Part shown: positions 4,932 to 24,799 of the stretch, piece by piece
How positions within the stretch are numbered: position 1 is the first letter of the stretch
Layout: each line of letters starts with the position of its first letter
Assembly: GCF_014203215.1 (NCBI RefSeq)
Contig: NZ_JACHIM010000003.1
Coordinates: 90,082 to 154,081 of the forward strand
Direction: 5' to 3'
Length of the DNA stretch: 64,000 bases
DNA from: Bartonella callosciuri
Lineage (GTDB): Bacteria; Pseudomonadota; Alphaproteobacteria; Rhizobiales; Rhizobiaceae
Notes under the pieces: generated by a model
Seen by the model: only the letters and a program-made list of their open reading frames with translations
Database searches by the model: none
What the model was told of the DNA's origin: nothing
Translations under genes and position numbers: made by a program

Positions 4932-5783
4932 ATGAAAACGCCATTCAGTAAAATGAACGGTCTTGGAAATCAAATTATTGTTGCTGATATGCGTGAAAGT
5001 ATGCATGCACTCACGCAGCAAGCAATCTTTGCTTTATCGGCAGATCCCGAAACATATTTTGATCAAATTATGGCTATCCATCCAGCGACCCAAAAAGAAG
5101 CTGACTTCCGCATCGAAATATGGAATGCTGACGGTTCAATGGCTAAAACCTGTGGTAATGGTACCCGTTGCGTGATCGCATGGCTCATTGACCACAATCT
5201 TGGTGAAACTTTTCGATTGGAAACACCCGCTGGAATTATTGAAGGTAAACGCCAAACCAACGACCTCATCTCTGTTGACATGGGGTGCCCAAATTTCAAT
5301 GCAAAAGAGATGCCTGTTTCACGTGAAATAGTCGATACCAATCACATTGAAATTACTGCTGGTCCCTTAAAAGATGCTTGTCTTGTCTCTGTTGGCAATC
5401 TCCACGCTATTTTTTTTGTTGAGAGCAATATTAAAAATATTCCGTTAGAAAAATATGGACCACAACTTGAACATGATCCCCTTTTTCCAGAACGGTGTAA
5501 TATTTCCATTGCTTATGTAACGTCAAAGAAAAGCCTAAATTTACGAACATGGGAGCGAGGAGCTGGATTAACGAAAGCATGCGGCAGTGCTGCCTGTGCG
5601 AGTGCGGTAGCTGCCTATCGACGTGGACTCACAAAACGCTCTATTAATGTAAATTTACCAGGGGGAACACTGAATATTTTTTATCGGGAAGACAATCATA
5701 TTATCATGACAGGTCCAATAAATTATGAGTTTAGTGGTTTTTTTAACCCTTTAACAGGGAGTTACAAAAAGGATCACTTTTAA
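4932..5783 (+). CDS. dapF: Diaminopimelate epimerase
   Basis: The product is 283 residues and interconverts LL- and meso-diaminopimelate for lysine and peptidoglycan synthesis. Both catalytic cysteines are visible: Cys74 in KTCGNGTRC and Cys217 in KACGSAACAS. The N-terminal substrate loop reads KMNGLGNQII where many homologues have GNDF. The stop codon overlaps the mtaB start (TAATG), starting a plus-strand dapF-mtaB-ftsY-yciB series. A parS-like palindrome lies inside the gene at 5315-5330. Confidence 0.96.
   Translation: MKTPFSKMNGLGNQIIVADMRESMHALTQQAIFALSADPETYFDQIMAIHPATQKEADFRIEIWNADGSMAKTCGNGTRCVIAWLIDHNLGETFRLETPAGIIEGKRQTNDLISVDMGCPNFNAKEMPVSREIVDTNHIEITAGPLKDACLVSVGNLHAIFFVESNIKNIPLEKYGPQLEHDPLFPERCNISIAYVTSKKSLNLRTWERGAGLTKACGSAACASAVAAYRRGLTKRSINVNLPGGTLNIFYREDNHIIMTGPINYEFSGFFNPLTGSYKKDHF
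5315..5330. promoter_or_regulatory. parS: parS-like centromere site inside dapF
   Basis: The sequence TGTTTCACGTGAAATA matches the conserved bacterial parS 16-mer TGTTTCACGTGAAACA at 15 of 16 positions with the TTTCACGTGAAA core intact. It is the outermost of four such sites in the window, about 5 kb from parB and 12 kb from the putative origin. Expected role: ParB loading for chromosome segregation. Confidence 0.7.
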
Positions 5784-10331: not shown

Positions 10332-11237
10332 TTAATTTTGTAAACGGCGACAAATATCGTCCAATTGTTCCAGTGAAGAGTAATGTATTTTTAAATCACC
10401 ACCTTTTTTACCATGCCGAATGATAACTTTCATTCCTATCACATCTGAAAGCAATTTTTCCAAAGATTTTGTTTCTGCATTTTTTTCTACAGTCGTTCGT
10501 TTTTTGACTTTAGGATTTGCCTGCTCATATGCAAGCATTTCTGTTTGGCGCACAGAAAGTCCTTCACGAATAATTTTTTCGGCCAAATCTTGTGGATTTT
10601 CAACGGTTATAAGGCAGCGTGCATGACCAGCAGAAAGTTGCCCATCGGTTAAGAGTTGTTGTACTTTTGATGGCAATTTTAATAAACGAAGCGTATTTGC
10701 AACATGACTTCGACTTTTTCCAATCACTTGTGCTAAATCTGTTTGCGTATAACCATGCTCATTCAGTAAAACTTCGTATCCCTTTGCTTCTTCGATAGGG
10801 TTAAGATCAGCACGTTGAACATTTTCAATAATTGCTAATTCCAAGGCCGTTTTATCATCCACATCACGAACAATAACAGGCAATTTACTTAAATTAGCAA
10901 GTTGTGCAGCCCGCCACCGCCGCTCTCCAGCGATTAATTCAAATCGATGAGGATGGTCATGTAAAGGTCTTACAATAATAGGCTGAACAACGCCATGTTG
11001 GCGAATTGATTGTGCTAAATTATCAAGTTCCAATTCGGTAAAATGGCGCCGTGGATTATGTGGATTACAAGAAATAGATTCAAGTGGAACAAATTTTTCA
11101 GAAAGAGTAGGGGTTGCAATGGGCACTGTCAATTTGTCAGTATTTGATGAACGTGCAAGATTGTTGTTTAAACTGATATCCCCAATCAATGCTGCTAATC
11201 CACGCCCCAGTCTTTTTTTTGATTGATCATCGTTCAT
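10332..11237 (-). CDS. parB: Chromosome-partitioning protein ParB
   Basis: The product is 301 residues. The N-terminus MNDDQSKKRLGRGLAALIGD is typical of chromosomal ParB. The CTP-binding/ParB N domain holds ELIAGERRWRAAQLA, and the helix-turn-helix domain includes TQTDLAQVIGKSRSHVAN, followed by the C-terminal dimerisation region. ParB loads at parS and slides as a CTP-dependent clamp. The frame is open 25 codons further upstream, but this ATG matches the family start. It lies 46 bp downstream of parA in the same direction; four parS-like sites lie nearby. Confidence 0.95.
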   Translation of the reverse strand: MNDDQSKKRLGRGLAALIGDISLNNNLARSSNTDKLTVPIATPTLSEKFVPLESISCNPHNPRRHFTELELDNLAQSIRQHGVVQPIIVRPLHDHPHRFELIAGERRWRAAQLANLSKLPVIVRDVDDKTALELAIIENVQRADLNPIEEAKGYEVLLNEHGYTQTDLAQVIGKSRSHVANTLRLLKLPSKVQQLLTDGQLSAGHARCLITVENPQDLAEKIIREGLSVRQTEMLAYEQANPKVKKRTTVEKNAETKSLEKLLSDVIGMKVIIRHGKKGGDLKIHYSSLEQLDDICRRLQN

Positions 11238-11283
11238 AATTTTGCTCTTCGAAATATTTACAAAAATTACTTTTATTACATTT

Positions 11284-12081
11284 TTAAGCAGCAACGCGTG
11301 TTTGTTTTTCACGTTGAATAACTTCTGATGCTAGACGCAGGTAAGCCTGACTACCCGCGCACTTGAGATCATAAAGCAATACTGGTTTACCAAAAGAAGG
11401 CGCTTCTGAAACCCGCACATTTCGTGGAATAACAGTGCGATAAACTTTATCTCCCATAAAAGAGCGTACATCTTCTACAACTTGGTTTGAAAGATTATTA
11501 CGTCCATCATACATGGTTAAAACAATCCCTTGAATTTCTAGAGATGGATTAAGAACAGATTGTACTTGCCTTACTGTTTCAAGCAATTGGCTTAAACCTT
11601 CAAGTGCTAAAAATTCACATTGCATGGGTACCAAAATAGAATCCGCAGCTCCCATAGCATTAAGTGTTAAAAGATTTAGTGACGGGGGACAATCAATTAA
11701 AATATAATTGAATTTTTTTTCCATTTTTGGATCATCATAGAGTGCCTTACGTAACCGTTGAATACGATCTTGCGATGAAGAAATTTCCATTTCTACTCCT
11801 AAAAGATCAAGGGTAGAAGGCACTATATGGAGATTGGGTACAGCTGTTTTTAAAGCTGCTTTTGCCACTGAAATACCTGAAACAAGAACATCATAAGAGG
11901 ATAAAGGACGATTATTACGATCAATTCCCAATCCTGTACTAGCATTACCTTGTGGATCAATATCCATAATAAGAACATTTTCACCAATAGCAGCTAAAGC
12001 TGTGGCAAGATTAATTGCTGTGGTTGTTTTTCCGACCCCACCTTTTTGGTTTGCAATAGCGATAATCCGTGTTTCGCCCAT
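11284..12081 (-). CDS. parA: Chromosome-partitioning ATPase ParA
   Basis: The product is 265 residues, a Walker-type ATPase that drives segregation of ParB-parS complexes. The deviant Walker A KGGVGKTT (Lys13-Thr20), the DIDPQGNAS switch and the IDCPPSLNLLTLNA Walker B region are all present. MGETRIIAIANQKGG is the usual N-terminus. Only 6 bp separate it from rsmG upstream, placing it in the mnmG-rsmG-parA-parB operon usual near alphaproteobacterial origins. Confidence 0.97.
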   Translation of the reverse strand: MGETRIIAIANQKGGVGKTTTAINLATALAAIGENVLIMDIDPQGNASTGLGIDRNNRPLSSYDVLVSGISVAKAALKTAVPNLHIVPSTLDLLGVEMEISSSQDRIQRLRKALYDDPKMEKKFNYILIDCPPSLNLLTLNAMGAADSILVPMQCEFLALEGLSQLLETVRQVQSVLNPSLEIQGIVLTMYDGRNNLSNQVVEDVRSFMGDKVYRTVIPRNVRVSEAPSFGKPVLLYDLKCAGSQAYLRLASEVIQREKQTRVAA

Positions 12082-12087
12082 TTAGCT

Positions 12088-12735
12088 TTACCCTCTACAT
12101 GATCTGATATGAGAAATTTCTAAAATAACAGAATTTTCATCAATTTTACTTTTATGTTTTAGCAGATCAAAAGCCCAATTGGCAGAGGCATTTTCTATTT
12201 CTTTAGAGTAATCCTGACCTTTTTGCAAAAGAGCTATTGTTTTTTTTGCTAATAGAGGAAAAATGAGCTTTAAGAGGGCATCAAGAGAAGCTAATCCCCG
12301 AGCTGTAATAATCTCTGGTGTGTCTATTTTTTTGTACACATCCTCAATTCTACAGTGGTGAACTGTTGCTGGAAGATTAAGTTGACTAATAACCGTTCGT
12401 AAAAAAGCTATTTTTTTTCCGTTGCTTTCAACAAGATCAATATGTCCTGCTTTTTTTTCTTTCATTAAAATAGCAATAACGATTGCAGGAAAACCTCCCC
12501 CTGATCCAAGATCACACCAACGCAGAAAATCACTGTGTAAAGGATAAATTTGCGCCGAATCCAAAATATGACGTGTCCATAGAATTGGTATTGTTGCAGC
12601 AGATATTAAATTAATATGCATATTCCACTGAGTGACTAGAGTTTCAAATTGTATTAAATCCTCCATCGTTTCACGTGAAACAGAAGGAACAATATTTAAC
12701 AATGCTTGATATTTTTGTTCTATAGAAATATTCAT
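12088..12735 (-). CDS. rsmG: 16S rRNA (guanine527-N7)-methyltransferase RsmG
   Basis: The product is 215 residues. The SAM-binding motif CDLGSGGGFPAIVIAI follows the HILDSAQI segment, and VESNGKKIAFLR and the ITARGLASL motif are conserved in RsmG (GidB). It methylates N7 of G527 in 16S rRNA. The ATG at 12735 overlaps the mnmG stop (TGATG); a TTG one codon earlier is also open. A parS-like site is embedded near its 5' end at 12667-12682. Confidence 0.94.
   Translation of the reverse strand: MNISIEQKYQALLNIVPSVSRETMEDLIQFETLVTQWNMHINLISAATIPILWTRHILDSAQIYPLHSDFLRWCDLGSGGGFPAIVIAILMKEKKAGHIDLVESNGKKIAFLRTVISQLNLPATVHHCRIEDVYKKIDTPEIITARGLASLDALLKLIFPLLAKKTIALLQKGQDYSKEIENASANWAFDLLKHKSKIDENSVILEISHIRSCRG
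12667..12682. promoter_or_regulatory. parS: parS-like centromere site inside rsmG
   Basis: The sequence CGTTTCACGTGAAACA matches parS at 15 of 16 positions, with a perfect 14-bp inner palindrome GTTTCACGTGAAAC. It lies within the early codons of rsmG, close to parAB and about 5 kb from the putative origin. Confidence 0.85.
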
Positions 12736-14634: not shown

Positions 14635-14650
14635 AGTTTCACGTGAAACA
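14635..14650. promoter_or_regulatory. parS: parS-like centromere site between mnmE and mnmG
   Basis: AGTTTCACGTGAAACA matches the parS 16-mer at 15 of 16 positions with an intact 14-bp inner palindrome. It lies in the short mnmE-mnmG gap, 50 bp from a second, weaker copy, so ParB could nucleate here on non-coding DNA. Confidence 0.87.
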
Positions 14651-14699: not shown

Positions 14700-14715
14700 T
14701 GTTTCACGTGAATCA
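14700..14715. promoter_or_regulatory. parS: Second parS-like site in the mnmE-mnmG gap
   Basis: TGTTTCACGTGAATCA matches parS at 15 of 16 positions; the mismatch (A to T) falls in the right half-site, so the palindrome is imperfect. It ends 2 bp before the mnmE stop codon. It pairs with the stronger site at 14635-14650. Confidence 0.65.
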
Positions 14716-14716
14716 T

Positions 14717-16051
14717 TTATTTACCAATACAGAATTCTGAAAAAATAATATCAAGCAAATCTTCAACATCTATATCTCCCGTAATTCTCCCAAGAAAGTC
14801 ACTTGCACGACGAAGATGTTCTGCACGTAAACTTAAATCAAGAGAATCATAATTAATAGAAGCTTCAATCTCTTTAACAGCCTCTTTTAATAACTGGAGT
14901 TGCCTTTTACGTGCTGGTACAAGATTACCAATTTCAGTAGCACGACGTGAACAAAATAATTCGAGTTCTTTAATAAAACAGTCAAAATTTAAACCGGTTA
15001 ATGCGGAAAACCGTATAAACCAATTGGTTTCATTCTCTTCATAAAGATCAAGCTTATTACCAACACACCATATTTCAGCCGATGTTTTTGGTAAATCAAT
15101 CTCTTTAGGATTTCCCATATCATAAACTAAAATAACTAAATCAGCATCCCTAATATGCTGCTTTGCAACTTCTATTCCTAATTGCTCTATTTTATTTTTT
15201 GTTTCTCTAAAACCAGCAGTATCTGTAAAAAAAATCGGTAAACCGCCGAGAATAAGTCTTACCTCTAAAGCATCACGGGTTGTACCTGCTTCTTCTGTTA
15301 CAATAGCAACAGGTTTTCCAACCAACCGATTCAGAATACTTGATTTTCCAGAATTTGGAGCACCCGCAATGACAATTTTTAAACCATCACGTAAGATATT
15401 TGCACGTTCTCCTTCATCAATATGTTCTCGAAGAGAAGTACAAAGATCTTCTACATCTTTCCAAACTTTATCAGATACTGAATTTGGAATATCAACTTCA
15501 TCAGAAAAATCAAGTTCTGCTTCAATAAAAGCACGCGCTTTTATAAGTTTATGCCGCCAATCACGATAAAGCGTTGTTAAACGCCCGCTCGTCCCCATAA
15601 CTGCTAAACGCCGTTGGCTTTCTGTTTCTGCTTCTATTAAATCAGCAAGACCTTCTGCTTGAACAAGATCTAATTTTCCTTCCATAAACGCGCGACGTGA
15701 AAACTCACCCGCCTCGGCCATACGACATCCAGAAAATGTAGATAATTCATCGAGAAAACGATTAACAACCGCTTTTCCTCCATGTAAATGAAACTCTGCA
15801 CAATCTTCTCCAGTAAAACTATGAGGAGCAGGAAAAAAAACAGTCAAAGCAGAATCTAAAAAACTACCATCACGAGCAGTAAGATTTCCATAATGCATGA
15901 ATCGGGCTTTTGGTAAACAACCACAAAGTGTCTTAACTATATTCACAACATGAGGGCCAGAAAGTCGTATGACTGCAACCCCTGAAGGCAACAATCCACT
16001 CGAAATAGCAAAGATTGTATCCACAGGATATATCCTAAACAAAAAACTCAA
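14717..16051 (-). CDS. mnmE: tRNA modification GTPase MnmE (TrmE)
   Basis: This G protein forms cmnm5U34 in tRNA together with MnmG. The N-terminal formyl-THF-binding domain (DTIFAISSGLLPSGVAVIRLSG), the G domain (GAPNSGKSS, DTAGFRET, GNKLD) and the conserved C-terminal CIGK, with its functionally important Cys, are present. The frame starts at ATG 16051, but the family normally begins at the aspartate of DTIFA; a GTG at 16024, immediately before it and about 10 bp after an AGGA, may be the true start (435 residues instead of 444). It is 5 bp downstream of rho. Confidence 0.94.
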   Translation of the reverse strand: MSFLFRIYPVDTIFAISSGLLPSGVAVIRLSGPHVVNIVKTLCGCLPKARFMHYGNLTARDGSFLDSALTVFFPAPHSFTGEDCAEFHLHGGKAVVNRFLDELSTFSGCRMAEAGEFSRRAFMEGKLDLVQAEGLADLIEAETESQRRLAVMGTSGRLTTLYRDWRHKLIKARAFIEAELDFSDEVDIPNSVSDKVWKDVEDLCTSLREHIDEGERANILRDGLKIVIAGAPNSGKSSILNRLVGKPVAIVTEEAGTTRDALEVRLILGGLPIFFTDTAGFRETKNKIEQLGIEVAKQHIRDADLVILVYDMGNPKEIDLPKTSAEIWCVGNKLDLYEENETNWFIRFSALTGLNFDCFIKELELFCSRRATEIGNLVPARKRQLQLLKEAVKEIEASINYDSLDLSLRAEHLRRASDFLGRITGDIDVEDLLDIIFSEFCIGK

Positions 16052-16056
16052 TATTT

Positions 16057-17322
16057 CTAAGTATTCATTGAGTCAAAGAATTCACTATTGTTTTTTGTTT
16101 GTTTTAATTTATCAATCAAAAATTCAATTGCATCTGTTACATTCATTGGTGCTAAAATACGACGAAGCACAAAAATTTTATGTAAGTCTTGTCGTGCTAC
16201 TAAAAGCTCTTCCTTACGCGTACCTGACTTCAAAATATCCATAGCTGGGAAAATACGCTTATCAGCAACTTTGCGATCGAGAACAATTTCTGAATTTCCT
16301 GTTCCTTTGAATTCCTCAAAAATAACCTCATCCATACGACTACCAGTATCAATCAAAGCCGTTGCAATAATGGTTAAAGACCCACCTTCTTCAATATTAC
16401 GTGCTGCACCAAAAAAACGTTTAGGACGTTGTAGGGCATTTGCATCTACACCACCTGTTAAAACCTTACCCGATGAAGGAACAACCGTGTTATACGCACG
16501 CCCAAGGCGCGTAATAGAATCGAGTAAGATAACAACATCCCGCCCATATTCAACAAGACGTTTTGCTTTTTCAATAACCATTTCAGCGACTTGTACATGA
16601 CGAATTGCTGGTTCATCAAAAGTAGAAGAAACCACTTCTCCTTGCACCGAACGTTGCATATCAGTAACTTCTTCTGGTCGTTCATCAATTAAAAGAACGA
16701 TAAGATAACATTCAGGATGATTAGTCGTAATAGAATGCGCAATATTTTGAAGTAAAACCGTTTTCCCTGTTCGAGGAGGTGCTACAATCAACCCTCGCTG
16801 CCCTTTTCCCAAAGGAGATATCAGATCAATTACTCGTGACGACATATCCTTTTCTGTAGGATCCTGTATTTCCATTTGAAAACGTTCATTTGAATAAAGG
16901 GGAGTAAGATTATCAAAATGAATTTTATAGCGAATTTTTTCAGGATCTTCAAAATTAATTGTATTTATTTTAAGAAGAGCAAAATAACGCTCTCCTTCTT
17001 TTGGACTACGTATAGGACCTTCAATGGTATCACCTGTTTTTAAAGAGAAAGATTGAATCTGTGCAGGTGAAAGATAAATATCATCAGGTCCCGGAAGATA
17101 GTTAGCATCAGCCGATCGCAAGAAACCAAATCCGTCCTGTAAAACTTCAACAACTCCCTCTCCGATAATTTCTACATCTTGCAAAGCAAGTTTTTTCAGA
17201 ATAGCAAACATTAATTCTTGTTTACGCATCAGAGAAGCATTTTCAACTTCTAACGTTTCAGCGAAAGAAACGAGTTCAACTGGATTTTTACTTTTAAGTT
17301 CTTGTAATTTCATTTCTTGCAT
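16057..17322 (-). CDS. rho: Transcription termination factor Rho
   Basis: The product is 421 residues, a hexameric RNA-dependent ATPase. The N-terminal cold-shock RNA-binding domain is visible ([22 protein letters not shown]), then Walker [21 protein letters not shown] spanning the Rho signature, Walker [17 protein letters not shown], and the Q- and R-loop region [20 protein letters not shown]. First gene of the leftward series next to the putative origin; the 621 bp ahead of it must hold its promoter. Confidence 0.97.
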
Positions 17323-17943
17323 AAAACATGCTCTTTAATATATGAAAGATTGTTTTTAAATAATTTAGGAAAACTTAGAGAATAGAAAATTCTTAAAGAA
17401 AAAATTATTGTACACTTACTTTTTAAAATCCGCAAGCATCATTCATACGATTATATTGATATAGTATTAAGCAATAAAATAATAAAATAAAATATACAAA
17501 TCAAAAAAAATTAAAATTACCTAAATTATAATATATTTTTGATGTTTACCATCATAAGATGAATTACAGAATAATTTTATAATATTTTAAATATTATATA
17601 TAGATTTTTTTGTATTATTAAAATGATATTCAATTTCTTAGATTTTCCAAAAAATTCTATATTATAGATATTAAAAGGGAATATTCTTTTTATTTTAATT
17701 TGTGTTTAACGTGGATTATTAATTATCCTTTATTAGTCCTCAATTTTATCAACAAATAAAAAAGAAAAAAAATAAATAGAACATTACTTTAAAGATATTA
17801 TCCCCGTTATTCTCTTATAAAAGCAGTTCAATTATCACAATTTTAAAATTTGTGTATAACAATGGAGAAGTTCTTCTAAATTTTAGTTTTATAAAACCCT
17901 CTAAGTATATATACACATTTATTAACAAGGAGTTAAAATTTTT
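17323..17943. other. Candidate chromosomal replication origin (oriC)
   Basis: This is a 621-bp gene-free, extremely AT-rich stretch between divergently transcribed rho and the PPSR gene. In Rhizobiales and Caulobacter the origin lies between hemE and this PPSR-maf-aroE-coaE-dnaQ series (known); here hemE is absent. DnaA-box-like sequences are TGTGTATAA at 17851-17859 (perfect TTATACACA on the minus strand), TTATCAACA at 17746-17754 and ATATACACA at 17909-17917 (one mismatch each). The densest AT run, about 17460-17700, could be the unwinding element. A CtrA-type TTAA-N7-TTAA lies at 17922-17936. Gene orientation diverges here and parAB/parS are close. The call rests on context and motifs, not on measured GC skew. 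Confidence 0.6.
17922..17936. promoter_or_regulatory. CtrA-type site overlapping the PPSR ribosome-binding site
   Basis: TTAACAAGGAGTTAA is an exact TTAA-N7-TTAA arrangement, the consensus spacing for the cell-cycle regulator CtrA, and also a 5-5-5 inverted repeat. Its centre is the AAGGAG Shine-Dalgarno of the gene starting with GTG at 17944. Such a motif can occur by chance in AT-rich DNA, so the binding role is inference. Confidence 0.4.
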
Positions 17944-18768
17944 GTGATAAGAAAAAAAAAGTCTTTTCATTTACATATGTTATCTGATGCAACAGGGGAA
18001 ACATTAATCTCAGTAGGAAGGGCTGTTGCAGCACAATATACGATGAGCCAAGCAACAGAGCATATCTATCCAATGATTCGCAATGAAACACAGTTGCAGA
18101 GAGCTCTTGACGAGATACAACAAGAGCCAGGTATTGTTCTTTACACAATCATTGATGAAAAAATTAAACTCCTTCTTAAGAGAAGATGTAAGAAAATGGA
18201 AGTTCCCTGTATTGATATATTGCATCCTGTTTTTGATGCTTTTCAGTCTTATCTTGGAATACCAACAAATTTACGGGCGAGTGCACAACATGATCTTAAT
18301 GCAGGTTACTTTCGCCGTATTGAGGCGTTGGATTTTACAATAGAGCATGATGATGGGCAGTCTCCTAATAGTTTATCGAAGGCAGATGTGATTCTTGTAG
18401 GAATTTCAAGAACCTCTAAAACACCCACTAGTATCTATTTAGCAAATCGTGGAATCAAAACTGCTAATGTCCCTCTTATTCCGGGAATTGATTTACCAGA
18501 AGCTCTTTTGGAAGCAAAAGATGCTTTGATAATCGGTTTAATTGCTTCAGCTGAAAGAATCTCACATATTCGTCAAAATAGATATTTTGGTGACAATTTA
18601 ACCATTGAGAGTTATACTAATCGTATCAGTATAGCTGAAGAGTTGACTTATGCAAAACGCATTTGCGAACGTTTTGGCTGGCCTACTATTGATGTTACAA
18701 GACGCTCTATTGAAGAAACTGCTGCGGCTATATTTGAACTTTTATCGCGATTTCGTGAAGGAAAATGA
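17944..18768 (+). CDS. ppsR: Pyruvate,phosphate dikinase regulatory protein (PPSR / DUF299 kinase-phosphorylase)
   Basis: The product is 274 residues of the DUF299 family, which phosphorylates and dephosphorylates PEP synthase or PPDK using ADP/Pi. The N-terminal FHLHMLSDATGET segment and the P-loop-like GISRTSKTPTSIYLANRG are the family signatures. The start is GTG, with AAGGAG 11 bp upstream; the frame has no better ATG nearby. It opens the rightward series from the putative origin, 12 bp before maf. The symbol is generic, since which dikinase it controls cannot be seen here. Confidence 0.92.
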   Translation: MIRKKKSFHLHMLSDATGETLISVGRAVAAQYTMSQATEHIYPMIRNETQLQRALDEIQQEPGIVLYTIIDEKIKLLLKRRCKKMEVPCIDILHPVFDAFQSYLGIPTNLRASAQHDLNAGYFRRIEALDFTIEHDDGQSPNSLSKADVILVGISRTSKTPTSIYLANRGIKTANVPLIPGIDLPEALLEAKDALIIGLIASAERISHIRQNRYFGDNLTIESYTNRISIAEELTYAKRICERFGWPTIDVTRRSIEETAAAIFELLSRFREGK

Positions 18769-18780
18769 GAGAAATATTCT

Positions 18781-19377
18781 ATGGCAGCAGATAGATTAAT
18801 ATTAGCATCTCTTAGTCCTTATCGTGCACAACTATTAAAAAAAGCAGGTTTAAGTTTTTCCATTAAAGGAGCCTCTTTTTGTGAAAGGGAAGCAGAAAAA
18901 AAAAGAAAAACAAAGAGTTCTAAAGAGCTTAGCTGTTTTCTTGCAAGTGCAAAAGCAAAAAATGTTTCTGATCGCTTTCCTGATACTTTGGTTCTTGGTT
19001 GTGATCAAGTACTTGATTTGGAGGGGCAAGTTTTCCACAAAGTCACAAGTAGCAGAGAAGCACGTCAACGTTTACATGATTTATCAGGAAAAACCCATTC
19101 TCTTCATAGTGCGGTGGCTTTATTTAAAAATGGAAAAGAAATCTGGGTGGAAGCTTTTAGTGCATATATGTCAGTCCGCCCTCTTTCATCAGAGTTCATT
19201 GAACGTTATTTAGCACGTGTAGGGACAGATGCTTTAAACAGTGTAGGAGTGTATCAAATTGAAGGAGAAGGAATCCATCTTTTTGAAAAAATTGACGGAG
19301 ATTTTTTTACCATTATTGGTTTACCTTTATTGCCTTTATTAGTAAAACTACGTCATTTGAGGGTCATTGATGGTTGA
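18781..19377 (+). CDS. maf: Maf-family nucleoside triphosphate pyrophosphatase
   Basis: The product is 198 residues. The Maf N-terminal motif appears as [14 protein letters not shown] (SPYR instead of the common SPRR), followed by [16 protein letters not shown] with the conserved Asp, and [26 protein letters not shown] near the C-terminus. Maf proteins hydrolyse non-canonical or canonical NTPs to NMPs and have been linked to septum control. It overlaps aroE by 8 bp, as in other alphaproteobacterial origin regions. Confidence 0.93.
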
Positions 19378-20251
19378 TTTAACAATAAAGAGCGAAAAAA
19401 TAATTTTTCCACGTGCTTTTGTTGTTGGTACTCCTGTTCATCATTCAAAATCACCAAAAATTCATAATTTCTGGCTTAAACAATATAATTTACAAGGTGA
19501 ATATCTCGCACAAGAAATAAAATCTGAAGAATTTAGAGGTTTTTTAGCGTCTATAAAAAGGAAGGGATTTTGTGGAGGTAATGTCACTCTACCCCATAAA
19601 CAAGAAGCCTTTCATTTAGTCAATTATAAAGATGACATAGCAACAATGATTGGTGCTGTTAATACGCTTTGGTATGAAGGAGATAAACTTTGTGCCACAA
19701 ATAGTGATGCCTATGGTTTTAGTGCTAACCTTGATGATTTTGCTCCTGATTGGGTCGGGGAAACAGCTCTTGTTTTTGGTGCAGGTGGTGCTGCACGCGC
19801 TATCTTATACGCCTTAAAAAAACGTGGATTTGAACGGATTTTCTTAGTTAATCGTACAAAGCAACACGCAGATGATTTAGCTGAATACTTCGGAAAACCT
19901 ATAGAAGTTCACGATTGGTATAATATGCATGAAATACTTTATCAAGCTGATTTAATTGTCAACACAACTTCTATAGGTATGGCAAATCAAAAAGAGAAAA
20001 AAAATGATTCTTTTTTTTGCGATTTTCATAAGATAAAGGCAACAGCGTTAGTGACAGATATTGTTTACACGCCATTAATAACGCCTTTTTTACAACAAGC
20101 AAAGATGTACGGTTTAAGAACAGTTGATGGGCTTGGTATGCTTTTACATCAAGCTGTTCCTGGTTTTGAAAGGTGGTTTGGAATAAGACCACAAGTAACA
20201 AAAGTATTACGCAATGCAATTTTAGAGGATATGAGTGAAGAGAGAGGATGA
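19370..20251 (+). CDS. aroE: Shikimate dehydrogenase (NADP+)
   Basis: The product is 293 residues and reduces 3-dehydroshikimate to shikimate in aromatic synthesis. The substrate loop [14 protein letters not shown], the catalytic Lys in [33 protein letters not shown], the NADP motif [11 protein letters not shown] with NRT, and [19 protein letters not shown] are all present. A TTG one codon upstream is open, but the ATG is preferred. It overlaps maf and, by ATGA, coaE. The shikimate pathway therefore appears at least partly retained. Confidence 0.95.
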
Positions 20252-20835
20252 AAATCATAGGACTGACTGGATCAATTGCTATGGGAAAATCAACAGTTGC
20301 TGATTTTTTCAAGCAAGCAGGTATTTCCGTTTTTAGTGCTGATGAGGCAGTGAACCAACTTTATAAGAGTGAACCAACTTTATCACTTATAGCACGTACA
20401 TTTCCTGGTGTTGTTGAATACGGTAAAGTTAATCGCCTAAAGCTTTCTGAAATTTTGATAAATGATAATAAAAAATTACAAATATTAGAAAAAATAATTC
20501 ATCCTTTGGTGCAAGCTAAGGAAAAAGAATTTATTGCTACAGCGCGCCAACAGGGAAAAAAGTTGGTTGTTCTTGATATTCCGCTTCTTTTTGAAACAAA
20601 TGCTGAAAAACGTGTAGACAGCGTGGTTGTTGTCTCTGCTCCACTGGCAATACAAAAAGAGCGTGCAATGATTCGTCCGAATATGAATGAAAAAAAATTT
20701 GCTTTTATTAATGCTAAACAAATGTCTGATAAAAAAAAACGAGAACGTGCTGATTTTATTATTGATACGGGAAAAGATTTAAAGAATACACGTCAGCAAG
20801 TTTTTTGTGTGATAAAAAATTTGCTAAAGAATTAA
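20248..20835 (+). CDS. coaE: Dephospho-CoA kinase
   Basis: The product is 195 residues, catalysing the last step of CoA synthesis. The P-loop is [12 protein letters not shown] at the N-terminus, followed by [10 protein letters not shown] and the [19 protein letters not shown] lid region. The C-terminal part ([16 protein letters not shown]) matches the family. The start is embedded in the aroE stop (ATGA), and dnaQ follows after 4 bp. Confidence 0.95.
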
Positions 20836-20839
20836 AGTA

Positions 20840-21547
20840 ATGCGTGAAATTATTTTTGATACAGAAACAACAGGTTTAGATAAAGAGAAAGATCGCATAA
20901 TCGAAATCGGTTGTGTAGAGATGATTGATCGTTATCTCACAGGACGCCGATTCCATGTTTATTTGAACCCGCAAGGTGTTATTATTCCTGATGAAGTCGT
21001 AGCAATTCATGGATTGACCAATGAACGCTTAAAAAATGAAAAAAGCTTTAGTGATATCGCTGATGAATTTTTGGAATTTATCAATGGTGCAACATTGATT
21101 GCCCATAACGCCAGTTTTGATATTGGCTTTCTTAATGCAGAATTAGAACGAGCGAATAAACCCCTTATCAGGGTTGATCATATTCTTGATACATTGGCAA
21201 TGGCACGGCGTAAGTTTCCCATGGGTCCTAATTCTCTTGATATTTTGTGCAAACGTTTTGGAATTGATAATAGTCATCGTGTTCTTCACGGTGCTTTACT
21301 GGATGCGGAGATTCTCGCCGATGTTTATATTGAGCTCATTGGTGGAAAGCAGGGCGTATTGGGTTTTGATAACAGGGACAGTTTTGATGCTAATACCCAA
21401 AATGATGAAAATGTCCCCTATGCAGCTAAACTTCGGCCACAAGCTTTACCTTCAAGATTAAGTGCGCAAGAAAGAAGTATGCATGCTGATTTCATCAAAA
21501 AAATGGGTGAAAAAGCCCTGTGGAATAGCTTTAAATTCCCTCAATAA
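20840..21547 (+). CDS. dnaQ: DNA polymerase III epsilon subunit (3'-5' proofreading exonuclease)
   Basis: The product is 235 residues. DEDDh exonuclease motifs are intact: ExoI FDTETTGLD, ExoII LIAHNASFDIGFLN, and ExoIII HRVLHGALLDAEILADVY with the catalytic His and Asp. The C-terminal tail, needed for alpha-subunit binding, is present (HADFIKKMGEKALW). It ends the maf-aroE-coaE-dnaQ series. In many Rhizobiales secB lies nearby; here a 342-bp gap and polA follow. Confidence 0.96.
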   Translation: MREIIFDTETTGLDKEKDRIIEIGCVEMIDRYLTGRRFHVYLNPQGVIIPDEVVAIHGLTNERLKNEKSFSDIADEFLEFINGATLIAHNASFDIGFLNAELERANKPLIRVDHILDTLAMARRKFPMGPNSLDILCKRFGIDNSHRVLHGALLDAEILADVYIELIGGKQGVLGFDNRDSFDANTQNDENVPYAAKLRPQALPSRLSAQERSMHADFIKKMGEKALWNSFKFPQ

Positions 21548-21889: not shown

Positions 21890-24799
21890 ATGAAAGCAAA
21901 AGATCATCTGTTTTTAATTGATGGATCAGGCTATATTTTTCGTGCTTACTACGCTTTACCACCTTTAAAGCGTAAAAAGGATGGACTTCCTGTAGGAGCT
22001 GTGGCTGGTTTTTGTAATATGCTGTGGAAATTGCTCTGTGATGCACGCAATACAGCTACCGGTGTTGTTCCAACACATTTTGCTGTTATTTTTGACTATT
22101 CATCCGATACATTTCGGAAACAAATTTATCCACAATATAAGGCTAATCGGGAGGCACCTCCTGAAGATCTTATCCCTCAATTCGCATTAATACGCCAAGC
22201 AACAAAGGCTTTTAATTTGCCTTGTATTGAAAAGGAAGGGTTTGAAGCGGATGATTTAATTGCTACCTATGCACAATTGGCAACAAAGGTTGGAGCAAAA
22301 ACAACTATTATCTCTTCTGATAAAGATCTTATGCAATTGGTGAATACGCATGTATCCTTGTATGATGCAATGAAAGACAAACATATTGGTGTTTCTGAAG
22401 TTGTAGAAAAATGGGGTGTTACGCCTGAAAAAATGGTTGATTTGCAAGCTTTAATTGGAGATGCAACAGATAATGTACCAGGTATTCCAGGCATTGGTCC
22501 AAAAATTGCAGCACAATTGTTGGAGCAATTTGGCTCTCTTGATCTTTTGTTACAGCGTGTAATAGAAGTCAAACAAACAAAACGGCGTGAAAATATTCAA
22601 GCTTATAGTGAACAGGTAAAAATTTCTCGTGAACTTGTTCGGCTTAAAACAGATGTTCCTATAGACAATGATTTAGATGATTTTATTTTGGAACCTCAAA
22701 ATGGTCCACGTTTAATCGCTTTTCTTAAAGCTATGGAATTTTCGACACTAACACGTCGGGTGGCAGAGGCGACGACATGTGACGCAACGGTTATTGATGC
22801 ACTTGATATAGATGATGTTGAGTGGGAAAAGTCTGGATATGAGCGTGATCCTAATATCAAGAAAGCTGATAGCATATTCCTACATGATTTTTCTGAAAAT
22901 TCTCCACAACGGTTGGCACAAAAACGTAAAGATCAAGCAGTATCGCAAAAAATTATAAGGAGTGCTTATACAACGATTCTTGATGAAGAACTTTTGAGAG
23001 AATGGCTATCGGAGGCACAAGAGCAAGGATTTTTTGCTTTTGATACTGAAACAACATCACTTGATCCTATGCAAGCAAAGCTTGTGGGTTTTTCTTTGGC
23101 ATTACAACCGGGGAAAGCAGCTTATATACCACTTGAACATGTTGAGGGGGGAGATGATCTTTTAGGAGGAGGACGCATTGCTAAACAAATTGAAACACAA
23201 AAGGCTTTGACGCTTTTAAAACCAATCTTAGAAAATCAAGCGGTTTTAAAAATTGGTCAAAATATAAAGTATGATTGGTTGGTGATGAAACAACAGGGTA
23301 TTGTGATACGCTCTTTTGATGACACAATGCTTTTATCGTATGCTTTAGAAGCTGGAGTTTTAACGCATGGTATGGATATTTTGTCTGAACGTTGGCTTGG
23401 GCACAAACCAATTGCCTATAAGGATTTAACAAATAACGGAAAAAAGATCACTTCTTTTGCAGAGGTAGATTTGAAACAAGCAACCCTTTATGCCGCCGAA
23501 GATGCTGATATAACGATTCGTTTGTGGCAAGTTTTAAAACCGCAGCTTGTGGCTCAAGGGATGACAAAAATCTACGAGCGTCTTGATCGACCACTGATAG
23601 AAGTTCTTGCAAAAATGGAAGAACGTGGCATCCTCGTTGATCGGCAAATTTTATTACGTCTTTCAGGAGAGCTAGCTCAGACTGCTATTATTCTAGAAGA
23701 GGAAATTTATCAACTAGCTAATGAGAAATTTAATCTTGCTTCGCCAAAGCAATTAGGTGATGTCCTTTTTGACAAAATGGGATTGCCTGGAGGCACTAAG
23801 ACCAAAGGTGGACAGTGGTCAACTTCTGCACAAGTTTTAGAGGAGTTGGCTGCTGAAGGTCATATTTTGCCGCGTAAAATTATTGATTGGCGTCAACTTG
23901 CAAAACTAAAATCTACTTATACAGATGCTTTACCCTCTTATATTTTGCCAAAAACAGGGCGTGTTCATACAAATTACTCTTTGACTACAACATCAACAGG
24001 ACGGTTGTCATCATCAGATCCCAACTTGCAAAATATTCCAGTGAGAACCACTGAGGGACGTAAAATCCGAACAGCTTTTATTGCTCCAGAAGGACATGTA
24101 TTGCTTTCAGCTGATTATAGTCAGATTGAATTGCGCATTCTTGCACATATTGCCGATATAAAGGCATTAAAAGAAGCTTTTGCTAGCGGTCAGGATATTC
24201 ACGCAATCACGGCATCGCAAATGTTTGGGGTTGCTATAGAGGGCATGCCTTCAGATATACGACGACGTGCGAAAGCGATTAATTTTGGTATTATTTATGG
24301 CATTTCAGCTTTTGGATTAGCTAATCAATTAGGGATTTCACGGCAAGAAGCCGGGCGTTATATTCAACTTTATTTTGAAAGGTTTCCAGGAATTAAAAAT
24401 TATATGGAAACAACGAAAAGTTTTGCACGCCAAAATGGTTATGTAGAAACAATTTTTGGACGTCGTATCCATTATCCGGAAATAAAAACGGCAAATCTAC
24501 AAGTACGTTCCTTTAATGAACGAGCTGCTATCAACGCACCAATTCAAGGATCAGCAGCGGATCTTATTCGCCGTGCCATGATTCAAATGGAAGATGCTTT
24601 AGAAAAAGAGAAGTTATCAGCAAAAATGTTGCTGCAAGTGCATGATGAATTGATTTTTGAGGTCCCAGAAGACGAAAGCGAGAAAACCATGGCTCTTGTG
24701 AAAAAGGTTATGGAAAATGCTACAATGCCAGTTCTCTCTTTGTCGGTCCCTCTTGAAGTAAAAGTAATGATTGCGCAAAATTGGGATGAAGCACATTAG
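21890..24799 (+). CDS. polA: DNA polymerase I
   Basis: The product is 969 residues. The 5'-3' exonuclease/FEN domain occupies about residues 1-300 (LIDGSGYIFRAYYA, FEADDLIATYA, SSDKDLMQLV, PGIPGIGPKIA). The 3'-5' exonuclease domain is intact, with FAFDTETTSLDPM and HNIKYDW-like GQNIKYDW. The polymerase domain has motif A SADYSQIELRILAHI, motif B RRRAKAINFGIIYGIS and motif C LQVHDELIFEV. Function: Okazaki-fragment processing and repair. AAGGAG lies 13 bp before the ATG. A perfect TTATCCACA DnaA box at 22126-22134 lies within codons and is probably coincidental. Confidence 0.97.
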   Translation: MKAKDHLFLIDGSGYIFRAYYALPPLKRKKDGLPVGAVAGFCNMLWKLLCDARNTATGVVPTHFAVIFDYSSDTFRKQIYPQYKANREAPPEDLIPQFALIRQATKAFNLPCIEKEGFEADDLIATYAQLATKVGAKTTIISSDKDLMQLVNTHVSLYDAMKDKHIGVSEVVEKWGVTPEKMVDLQALIGDATDNVPGIPGIGPKIAAQLLEQFGSLDLLLQRVIEVKQTKRRENIQAYSEQVKISRELVRLKTDVPIDNDLDDFILEPQNGPRLIAFLKAMEFSTLTRRVAEATTCDATVIDALDIDDVEWEKSGYERDPNIKKADSIFLHDFSENSPQRLAQKRKDQAVSQKIIRSAYTTILDEELLREWLSEAQEQGFFAFDTETTSLDPMQAKLVGFSLALQPGKAAYIPLEHVEGGDDLLGGGRIAKQIETQKALTLLKPILENQAVLKIGQNIKYDWLVMKQQGIVIRSFDDTMLLSYALEAGVLTHGMDILSERWLGHKPIAYKDLTNNGKKITSFAEVDLKQATLYAAEDADITIRLWQVLKPQLVAQGMTKIYERLDRPLIEVLAKMEERGILVDRQILLRLSGELAQTAIILEEEIYQLANEKFNLASPKQLGDVLFDKMGLPGGTKTKGGQWSTSAQVLEELAAEGHILPRKIIDWRQLAKLKSTYTDALPSYILPKTGRVHTNYSLTTTSTGRLSSSDPNLQNIPVRTTEGRKIRTAFIAPEGHVLLSADYSQIELRILAHIADIKALKEAFASGQDIHAITASQMFGVAIEGMPSDIRRRAKAINFGIIYGISAFGLANQLGISRQEAGRYIQLYFERFPGIKNYMETTKSFARQNGYVETIFGRRIHYPEIKTANLQVRSFNERAAINAPIQGSAADLIRRAMIQMEDALEKEKLSAKMLLQVHDELIFEVPEDESEKTMALVKKVMENATMPVLSLSVPLEVKVMIAQNWDEAH

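Follow-up and report, generated by a model that had tools for sequence, protein, structure and literature searches.

Where does a chromosome start to replicate if the gene that marks the origin in related bacteria has disappeared? Alphaproteobacterial origins of the hemE-PPSR (RP001) type, as in Caulobacter and in Rhizobiaceae, have hemE as their landmark, and the sequence that adjoins this gene could be origin or promoter. In Bartonella callosciuri, the question arises at a gap of 621 bp with a GC content of 18.2% (positions 17323-17943) between the divergent genes rho and PPSR, the gene of the pyruvate,phosphate dikinase/PEP synthase regulator. All positions refer to the window, i.e. the whole analyzed stretch of 64,000 nucleotides, which corresponds to positions 90082-154081 of contig C3 in a 1.74-Mb draft assembly of 36 contigs. 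The original prediction had taken this AT-rich gap for the chromosomal origin with hemE missing from its usual flank, had asked whether origin elements near hemE were lost or moved, and had named GC skew, a DnaA-box scan and a genome-wide search for hemE as checks. GC skew, DnaA boxes beyond chance, and the register of these boxes with origins of the family now all agree with an origin, and 17323-17943 is very probably the chromosomal origin. The more complete reading, to which we assign a probability of about 0.9, is that of a hemE-less Bartonella origin from which hemE and hemJ were removed, in which a hemE-side block and the boxes were kept, and from which GANTC sites were lost. Judged by its sequence, it thus belongs to the hemE-PPSR type of alphaproteobacterial origins, with the flank of hemE having been lost, and is as such of a known general kind.

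The surroundings of the gap are as predicted. Instead of hemE, rho directly adjoins it (16057-17322, minus strand, NCBIfam rho, 698 bits) and is transcribed away from the proposed origin, followed in the left flank by mnmE, mnmG and homologues of ParA and ParB (parB and parA at 10332-12081, minus strand; NCBIfam ParA-/ParB-family). On the other side, PPSR (17944-18768, plus strand, NF003742, 344 bits) is followed by maf, aroE, coaE and dnaQ (18781-21547, plus strand, NCBIfam). A motif scan detected three parS-like 16-mers with one mismatch each on the rho side (12667-12682, 14635-14650 and 14700-14715), and a fourth one, also with one mismatch, lies about 12 kb from the proposed origin at 5315-5330. 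PPSR is matched in 35 named Bartonella loci, with which the rho of the window groups. A search for known RNA families in 16000-19000 gave one unrelated snoRNA-family match with an E-value of 0.92, which is at chance level and was discarded.

The cumulative GC skew of the window has its minimum at 17926. Eight samples were taken from contig C3: the four on the left of the region are negative (-0.11 to -0.17), the four on the right positive (+0.07 to +0.15), and by these samples the sign holds for about 108 kb leftwards and about 149 kb rightwards. As the own assembly is a draft of 36 contigs, the skew of a whole chromosome was taken from samples of a relative, B. koehlerae, whose near-complete assembly is a single contig of 1.74 Mb and was sampled at 20 places, 18 kb each. 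Its skew changes sign between 279 and 348 kb, with rho-PPSR at about 313 kb, and a second time between 1149 and 1218 kb, the point half a chromosome away being at 1182 kb. In all 33 named loci of 20.8 kb, the local skew minimum lies between -1210 and +630 bp from the start of the PPSR match. For B. quintana, a passage of PMC11091102 likewise states that the predicted origin coincides with the switch of the GC skew.

Within the final 260 bp ahead of PPSR, the scan for DnaA boxes detected five that differ from TTATNCACA by one mismatch at most, a number that none of 1000 shuffles reached (mean 0.40). Elsewhere in the window, a stretch of 260 bp contains three such boxes at most. Over 34 Bartonella loci, the mean is 5.7 boxes versus 0.46 expected. 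The genome encodes DnaA, CtrA and ChpT, and the DnaA product contains a GRDHTTV stretch, which we take to be the signature of box reading. From the rho side to the PPSR side, the box-like sequences are TTAAACACA (17701-17709, minus strand, one mismatch), the weak TAATCCACG (17710-17718, minus strand, two mismatches here, at most one in 25/34 Bartonella), TTATCAACA (17746-17754, plus strand, one mismatch here, the exact TTATNCACA in 24/34), the weak TTATCCCCG (17798-17806, plus strand, two mismatches), TTATACACA (17851-17859, minus strand, at -93 from PPSR), ATATACACA (17909-17917, plus strand, at -35, one mismatch) and TTATTAACA (17919-17927, plus strand, at -25, one mismatch). Among these, the -93 box is the sole exact one of the window, and it counts against the reading that this species has only one exact TTATNCACA box.

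The position of the boxes relative to PPSR is shared with the family. With at most one mismatch, the -93 box occurs in 33/34 hemE-less Bartonella and in 15 of 19 relatives, and the -35 box in 32/34 and 11/19, whereas control positions reach averages of 0.7/34 (highest 11) and 0.4/19 (highest 2). The -93 box is furthermore exact in 9/9 hemE-bearing Bartonella. The -25 box is weakly supported: with up to two mismatches it is found in 22/34 Bartonella and 13/19 relatives, the best control positions giving 20 and 8. The boxes of the relatives at -137 and -184 have no in-register counterpart in the 34 hemE-less Bartonella, which instead carry boxes at -145, -197, -210, -234 and -243; the -137 box of the relatives might conceivably be the -145 box of Bartonella after a shift of 8 bp. 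As the -137 and -184 boxes are likewise absent from the box lists of the nine hemE-bearing Bartonella, this change is older than the loss of hemE.

That loss is evident in the whole genome. Neither hemE nor hemB or hemH is matched anywhere in the own genome, hemE is matched in none of 35 named Bartonella genomes, and hemJ in none of the six genomes tested (own genome included), by a model that matched only 2 of 14 control genomes, Caulobacter among them. A tblastn search of 16001-18800 of the window gave no match to hemE or hemJ at an E-value of 1e-6. These absences are in line with the suggestion that the loss fits haem-importing bacteria, and passages of PMC3483173 and PMC3365110 indeed refer to Bartonella as haem auxotrophs. 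That hemE is missing from all Bartonella is ruled out, since 14 of 71 genomes of the genus, 2.2-2.9 Mb in size, have a match (13 over the family cut-off). These genomes presumably belong to bee-gut and B. tamiae-like species, and the hemE-less Bartonella of the window would be of the blood-borne type. In the 13 hemE-bearing genomes that were looked at (G241 was left out), hemE always adjoins hemJ and rho, with mnmE being next in the 12 that have long enough stretches. PPSR lies on the other side of hemE on the same stretch in ten of them; in G188 and G198 it is found at the opposite end of their single contig, and G247 lacks it.

The same arrangement prevails in the family. Within a drawn sample of the same GTDB family, whose genomes we infer to be Rhizobiaceae, hemE is found in 145/151 genomes and PPSR in 117/151, and 113 of the 114 genomes with both genes show a distance of 312-544 bp from one profile end to the other; in the remaining genome, the two genes are on different contigs. 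The order rho-hemJ-hemE-gap-PPSR is present in 11 of the 12 relative loci that were examined first, and ten further relatives, picked for having both genes, have the same order, the contig of one (L060) ending before rho. Three candidates for a hemE loss, G053, G089 and G150, were rejected, as they also lack a true rho, and G053 and G150 a full mnmG; assembly gaps are here the likelier explanation for the absent hemE. In one locus (L127, genome G229), hemE and rho each match as two adjacent pieces in different frames, which suggests assembly errors rather than decay. In another genome (G005; L064, L076), the origin flank is rearranged, with mnmG on the unusual side of hemE and PPSR unmatched.

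A tree of rho and mnmE with 28 rows places all 15 hemE-less rows in a single clade (100/100) and the nine rows of hemE-bearing Bartonella in another one (88/81). As the hemE-less rows are one clade, hemE and hemJ most likely left only once. In the region of the window, a putative promoter of rho, read by eye from alignments of rho-upstream sequences, lies at 17407-17436 on the minus strand (-35 CTTGCG, 18 bp, -10 TACAAT), and a promoter-like block of this kind before rho (CTTGC, about 18 bp, TATAAT-like) is common to relatives that still have hemJ-hemE. Because of this shared rho-side block, the former site of hemE-hemJ is probably the adjoining segment 17440-17677. This segment is very AT-rich and poorly conserved among the 34 Bartonella, which makes it also a candidate unwinding region; averaged over the 34, the GC content of the region is lowest, with 0.15-0.18, between -280 and -440 from PPSR.

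What happened to the sequences that had been next to hemE? A block with the sequence GATTCTGATTCTTAGAGTCTGTGTTT..TTAATTATTTATTAA..TTATCCACA or TTTTCCACA is common to the hemE-bearing Bartonella and lies near hemE, at about -360. A profile made from nine of these sequences has its best match in 34/34 hemE-less Bartonella at one and the same place, -252 to -268, which rules out that the block was lost. In 33/34, the score exceeds the best of 1020 shuffles, that of L017 being below the best shuffle, and 36 of 50 consensus positions are identical between hemE-bearing and hemE-less Bartonella. The retained block of the window (17678-17727), which contains no GANTC, scores 8.4 within a range of -12.4 to 45.7 over the 34. 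In relatives of ordinary GC content, the best match lies at -351 to -372 in 18 of 19 (in L041 at -403) and begins about 30-85 bp before hemE; a GATTCTTAGAGTCTGTT-like core is visible in most of them, with scores of -35.6 to 21.1 and placements made without a shuffle control.

The block thus appears to have been kept and to have come closer to the boxes, which is the answer that sequence comparison gives to the question whether elements near hemE were lost or moved. From the block to the -93 box, the distance is 234-255 bp in 18 relatives and 242-246 bp in the nine hemE-bearing Bartonella, and only 138-152 bp in the 34 hemE-less Bartonella (19 of 21 relatives were measured, L041 and L052 being left out). 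The block of hemE-less Bartonella has therefore approached the -93 box, which itself stayed in register, by about 94 bp. Within the hemE-less Bartonella, the distances cluster at 138-140 and at 149-152 bp, and in the relatives at 234-237 and 248-255 bp, the clusters being about one helical turn or slightly more apart. A shortening of the spacer also occurs without loss of hemE, since the strongly reduced 1.16-Mb genome G093, which keeps hemE, has a spacer of 129 bp (L053). The opposite flank has been lost in the hemE-bearing Bartonella G247: no PPSR exists between hemE and maf, the gene being decayed or gone, and a block-like sequence together with six exact DnaA boxes remains (L123:4951-6035). 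G247 thereby mirrors the hemE-less origins, and the modules of the origin appear to persist whichever flanking gene goes.

From these comparisons, a course of events can be proposed. The ancestral order would have been rho-hemJ-hemE-[hemE-side block - spacer - PPSR-side boxes]-PPSR, as the comparison supports. The pair hemE-hemJ would then have been removed on one branch within Bartonella, the promoter-like element of rho, the block and the -93 box kept, the distance from block to -93 box shortened from 242-246 to 138-152 bp, and the GANTC sites of the origin lost. As the modules were kept after the removal of hemE-hemJ, hemE may well have been a passenger of the origin and not a needed part of it. 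In the present origin, DnaA would bind to the box array at about 17700-17930 and open the AT-rich DNA at 17440-17677 on the rho side, forks would leave in both directions, and segregation would be handled by ParB together with the parS sites that lie on the rho side at distances of 2.6-4.7 kb. The removal of hemJ along with hemE, the single clade of hemE-less species and the loss of GANTC, all read from sequence, go beyond the original prediction. Among the matches listed in the open-licence literature (titles, abstract starts and passages), there was no paper on the structure of a Bartonella origin and no description of the retained block, the shortened spacer or the GANTC loss.

The GANTC sites raise the possibility that the origin was not only shortened but also rewired when hemE was lost, with gating by CcrM via GANTC being dropped and direct control by CtrA being moved to the PPSR side. 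The region contains on average 5.22 GANTC sites in the nine hemE-bearing Bartonella (three to seven sites; 1.19 expected) and 4.74 in the 19 relatives (1.56 expected), versus 0.65 in the 34 hemE-less Bartonella (1.02 expected) and none in the window. In the left arm of the block, there are three sites in 9/9 hemE-bearing Bartonella, 0-3 in the 19 relatives and 0-1 in the 34 hemE-less Bartonella. Base composition is not the explanation of this difference, which concerns a single branch only. According to a passage of PMC9836097, GANTC is increased around origins in four alphaproteobacterial orders. The methylase itself has been retained in the one hemE-less genome that was looked at in this respect, B. 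koehlerae, where ccrM was found by partial sampling (L152:795-1997; best solved relative 6pbd, CcrMI); motif scans for ccrM gave none in the window, in the named loci and samples, or in the earlier B. koehlerae samples. A passage of PMC13092597 also mentions a CcrM of B. bacilliformis.

As for CtrA, a CtrA-like TTAA-N7-TTAA motif of uncertain function at 17922-17936, one of two copies in the window, overlaps the -25 box and the Shine-Dalgarno sequence of PPSR. At this position (about -22), it is present in 33/34 hemE-less Bartonella and occurs in 0/19 relatives, whereas inside the block it is present in 9/9 hemE-bearing Bartonella and again in 0/19 relatives. This could be a weak hint, to be taken as a lead only, that a CtrA-like motif was lost from the hemE-side block and another one gained beside PPSR. 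However, B. koehlerae (L023) has a disrupted -22 site, composition alone gives 0.39 motifs per region (1.29 observed), and sequences beside ribosome sites are similarly conserved at other genes (such as rho and the gene at 21890). Neither the Shine-Dalgarno conservation nor the raw motif counts were therefore accepted as stand-alone evidence, being confounded by ribosome sites and AT content. As the GANTC loss occurred on one branch only, cause and drift cannot be separated, and we regard a rewiring in addition to the loss of the flank as possible, yet rather unlikely. Its fullest version, a rewiring upon the change of Bartonella to a blood parasite that imports haem, in which the modules came about 94 bp (about nine helical turns) closer, the CcrM sites were lost with CcrM kept, and the CtrA site was swapped, is doubtful. 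If it were true, initiation in the hemE-less pathogens would be uncoupled from methylation of the origin, in contrast to their hemE-bearing sisters, which are probably bee-gut species, and to other members of the family. The GANTC loss with CcrM kept in the species looked at makes the role of origin methylation in initiation testable.

What alternatives exist for an origin at this place? The region could be a mere divergent double promoter for rho and PPSR, in which case the skew would come from gene orientation and the boxes would regulate transcription. A promoter-like element indeed lies before rho, the other conserved end overlaps the Shine-Dalgarno sequence of PPSR, and the block of the relatives is situated where a hemE promoter would be expected, so that the hemE-side block may itself be part of a promoter and no element of the origin. 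Yet by samples the skew sign is constant on both sides of the region on contig C3 and over half chromosomes in B. koehlerae, the hemE-side block persists without hemE, and block and boxes persist in G247 without PPSR, which together make a mere double promoter very improbable. Still less credible is that replication now starts elsewhere, at dnaA, which lies 147 kb away on the same contig and not beside the region, or at a phage-derived run-off origin, such as the second origin described for B. henselae and B. grahamii in passages of PMC2697382 and PMC3610622, and that the region is a relic, since the skew turns at rho-PPSR and not at dnaA, both the boxes and the block are conserved in the 34 loci, the segment amplified from the run-off origin reportedly comprises some hundred kb, and a predicted origin of B. 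quintana is at a skew switch (PMC11091102).

An origin of the hemE-PPSR type without its hemE flank thus remains the preferred reading, and it can be compared to better known systems. With the type, it shares the adjacent PPSR, the nearby parAB and parS, the block, the skew minimum, and the -93, -35 and, weakly, -25 boxes in register with the 19 same-family relatives. It differs from it in the absence of hemE and hemJ, the adjacent rho, the inner spacer that is about 94 bp shorter, a GANTC number at or below chance, and boxes between -145 and -243 in place of those at -137 and -184. With the hemE-bearing Bartonella, it has in common the flanks mnmE-rho and PPSR-maf-aroE-coaE-dnaQ, the block and the exact -93 box, whereas their origins have hemJ-hemE, 3-7 GANTC sites (nine regions) and TTAA-N7-TTAA inside the block. 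Like Cori of Caulobacter crescentus, it is an alphaproteobacterial origin near parS in a genome that encodes CtrA, but Cori has five CtrA sites according to a passage of PMC6399470, compared to one conserved but uncertain site here. In case of Sinorhizobium meliloti, a passage of PMC4433202 states that the origin is not bound by CtrA, which differs from the one uncertain CtrA-like site of the window. Bartonella represents a natural deletion, in which hemE is gone and the block stays, and together with G247, which lost PPSR and kept block and boxes, it helps to mark out the minimal origin.

A more distant variant is found in genome G072 (one contig of 1,868,279 bp), probably the ant-gut relative of Bartonella of PMC5156944, for which a passage of that paper reports that its authors found no DnaA boxes. 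Like the origin described here, it has no hemE, and mnmG-parAB with parS lies where the skew turns. As rho, hemE, hemJ and PPSR are all without a match in G072 and its skew turns near mnmG, the rho-hemE-PPSR arrangement is not indispensable throughout the family. At this skew turn, a type I secretion operon and aroK-aroB are located beside parS-mnmG-parAB (L082:1-16000, L092).
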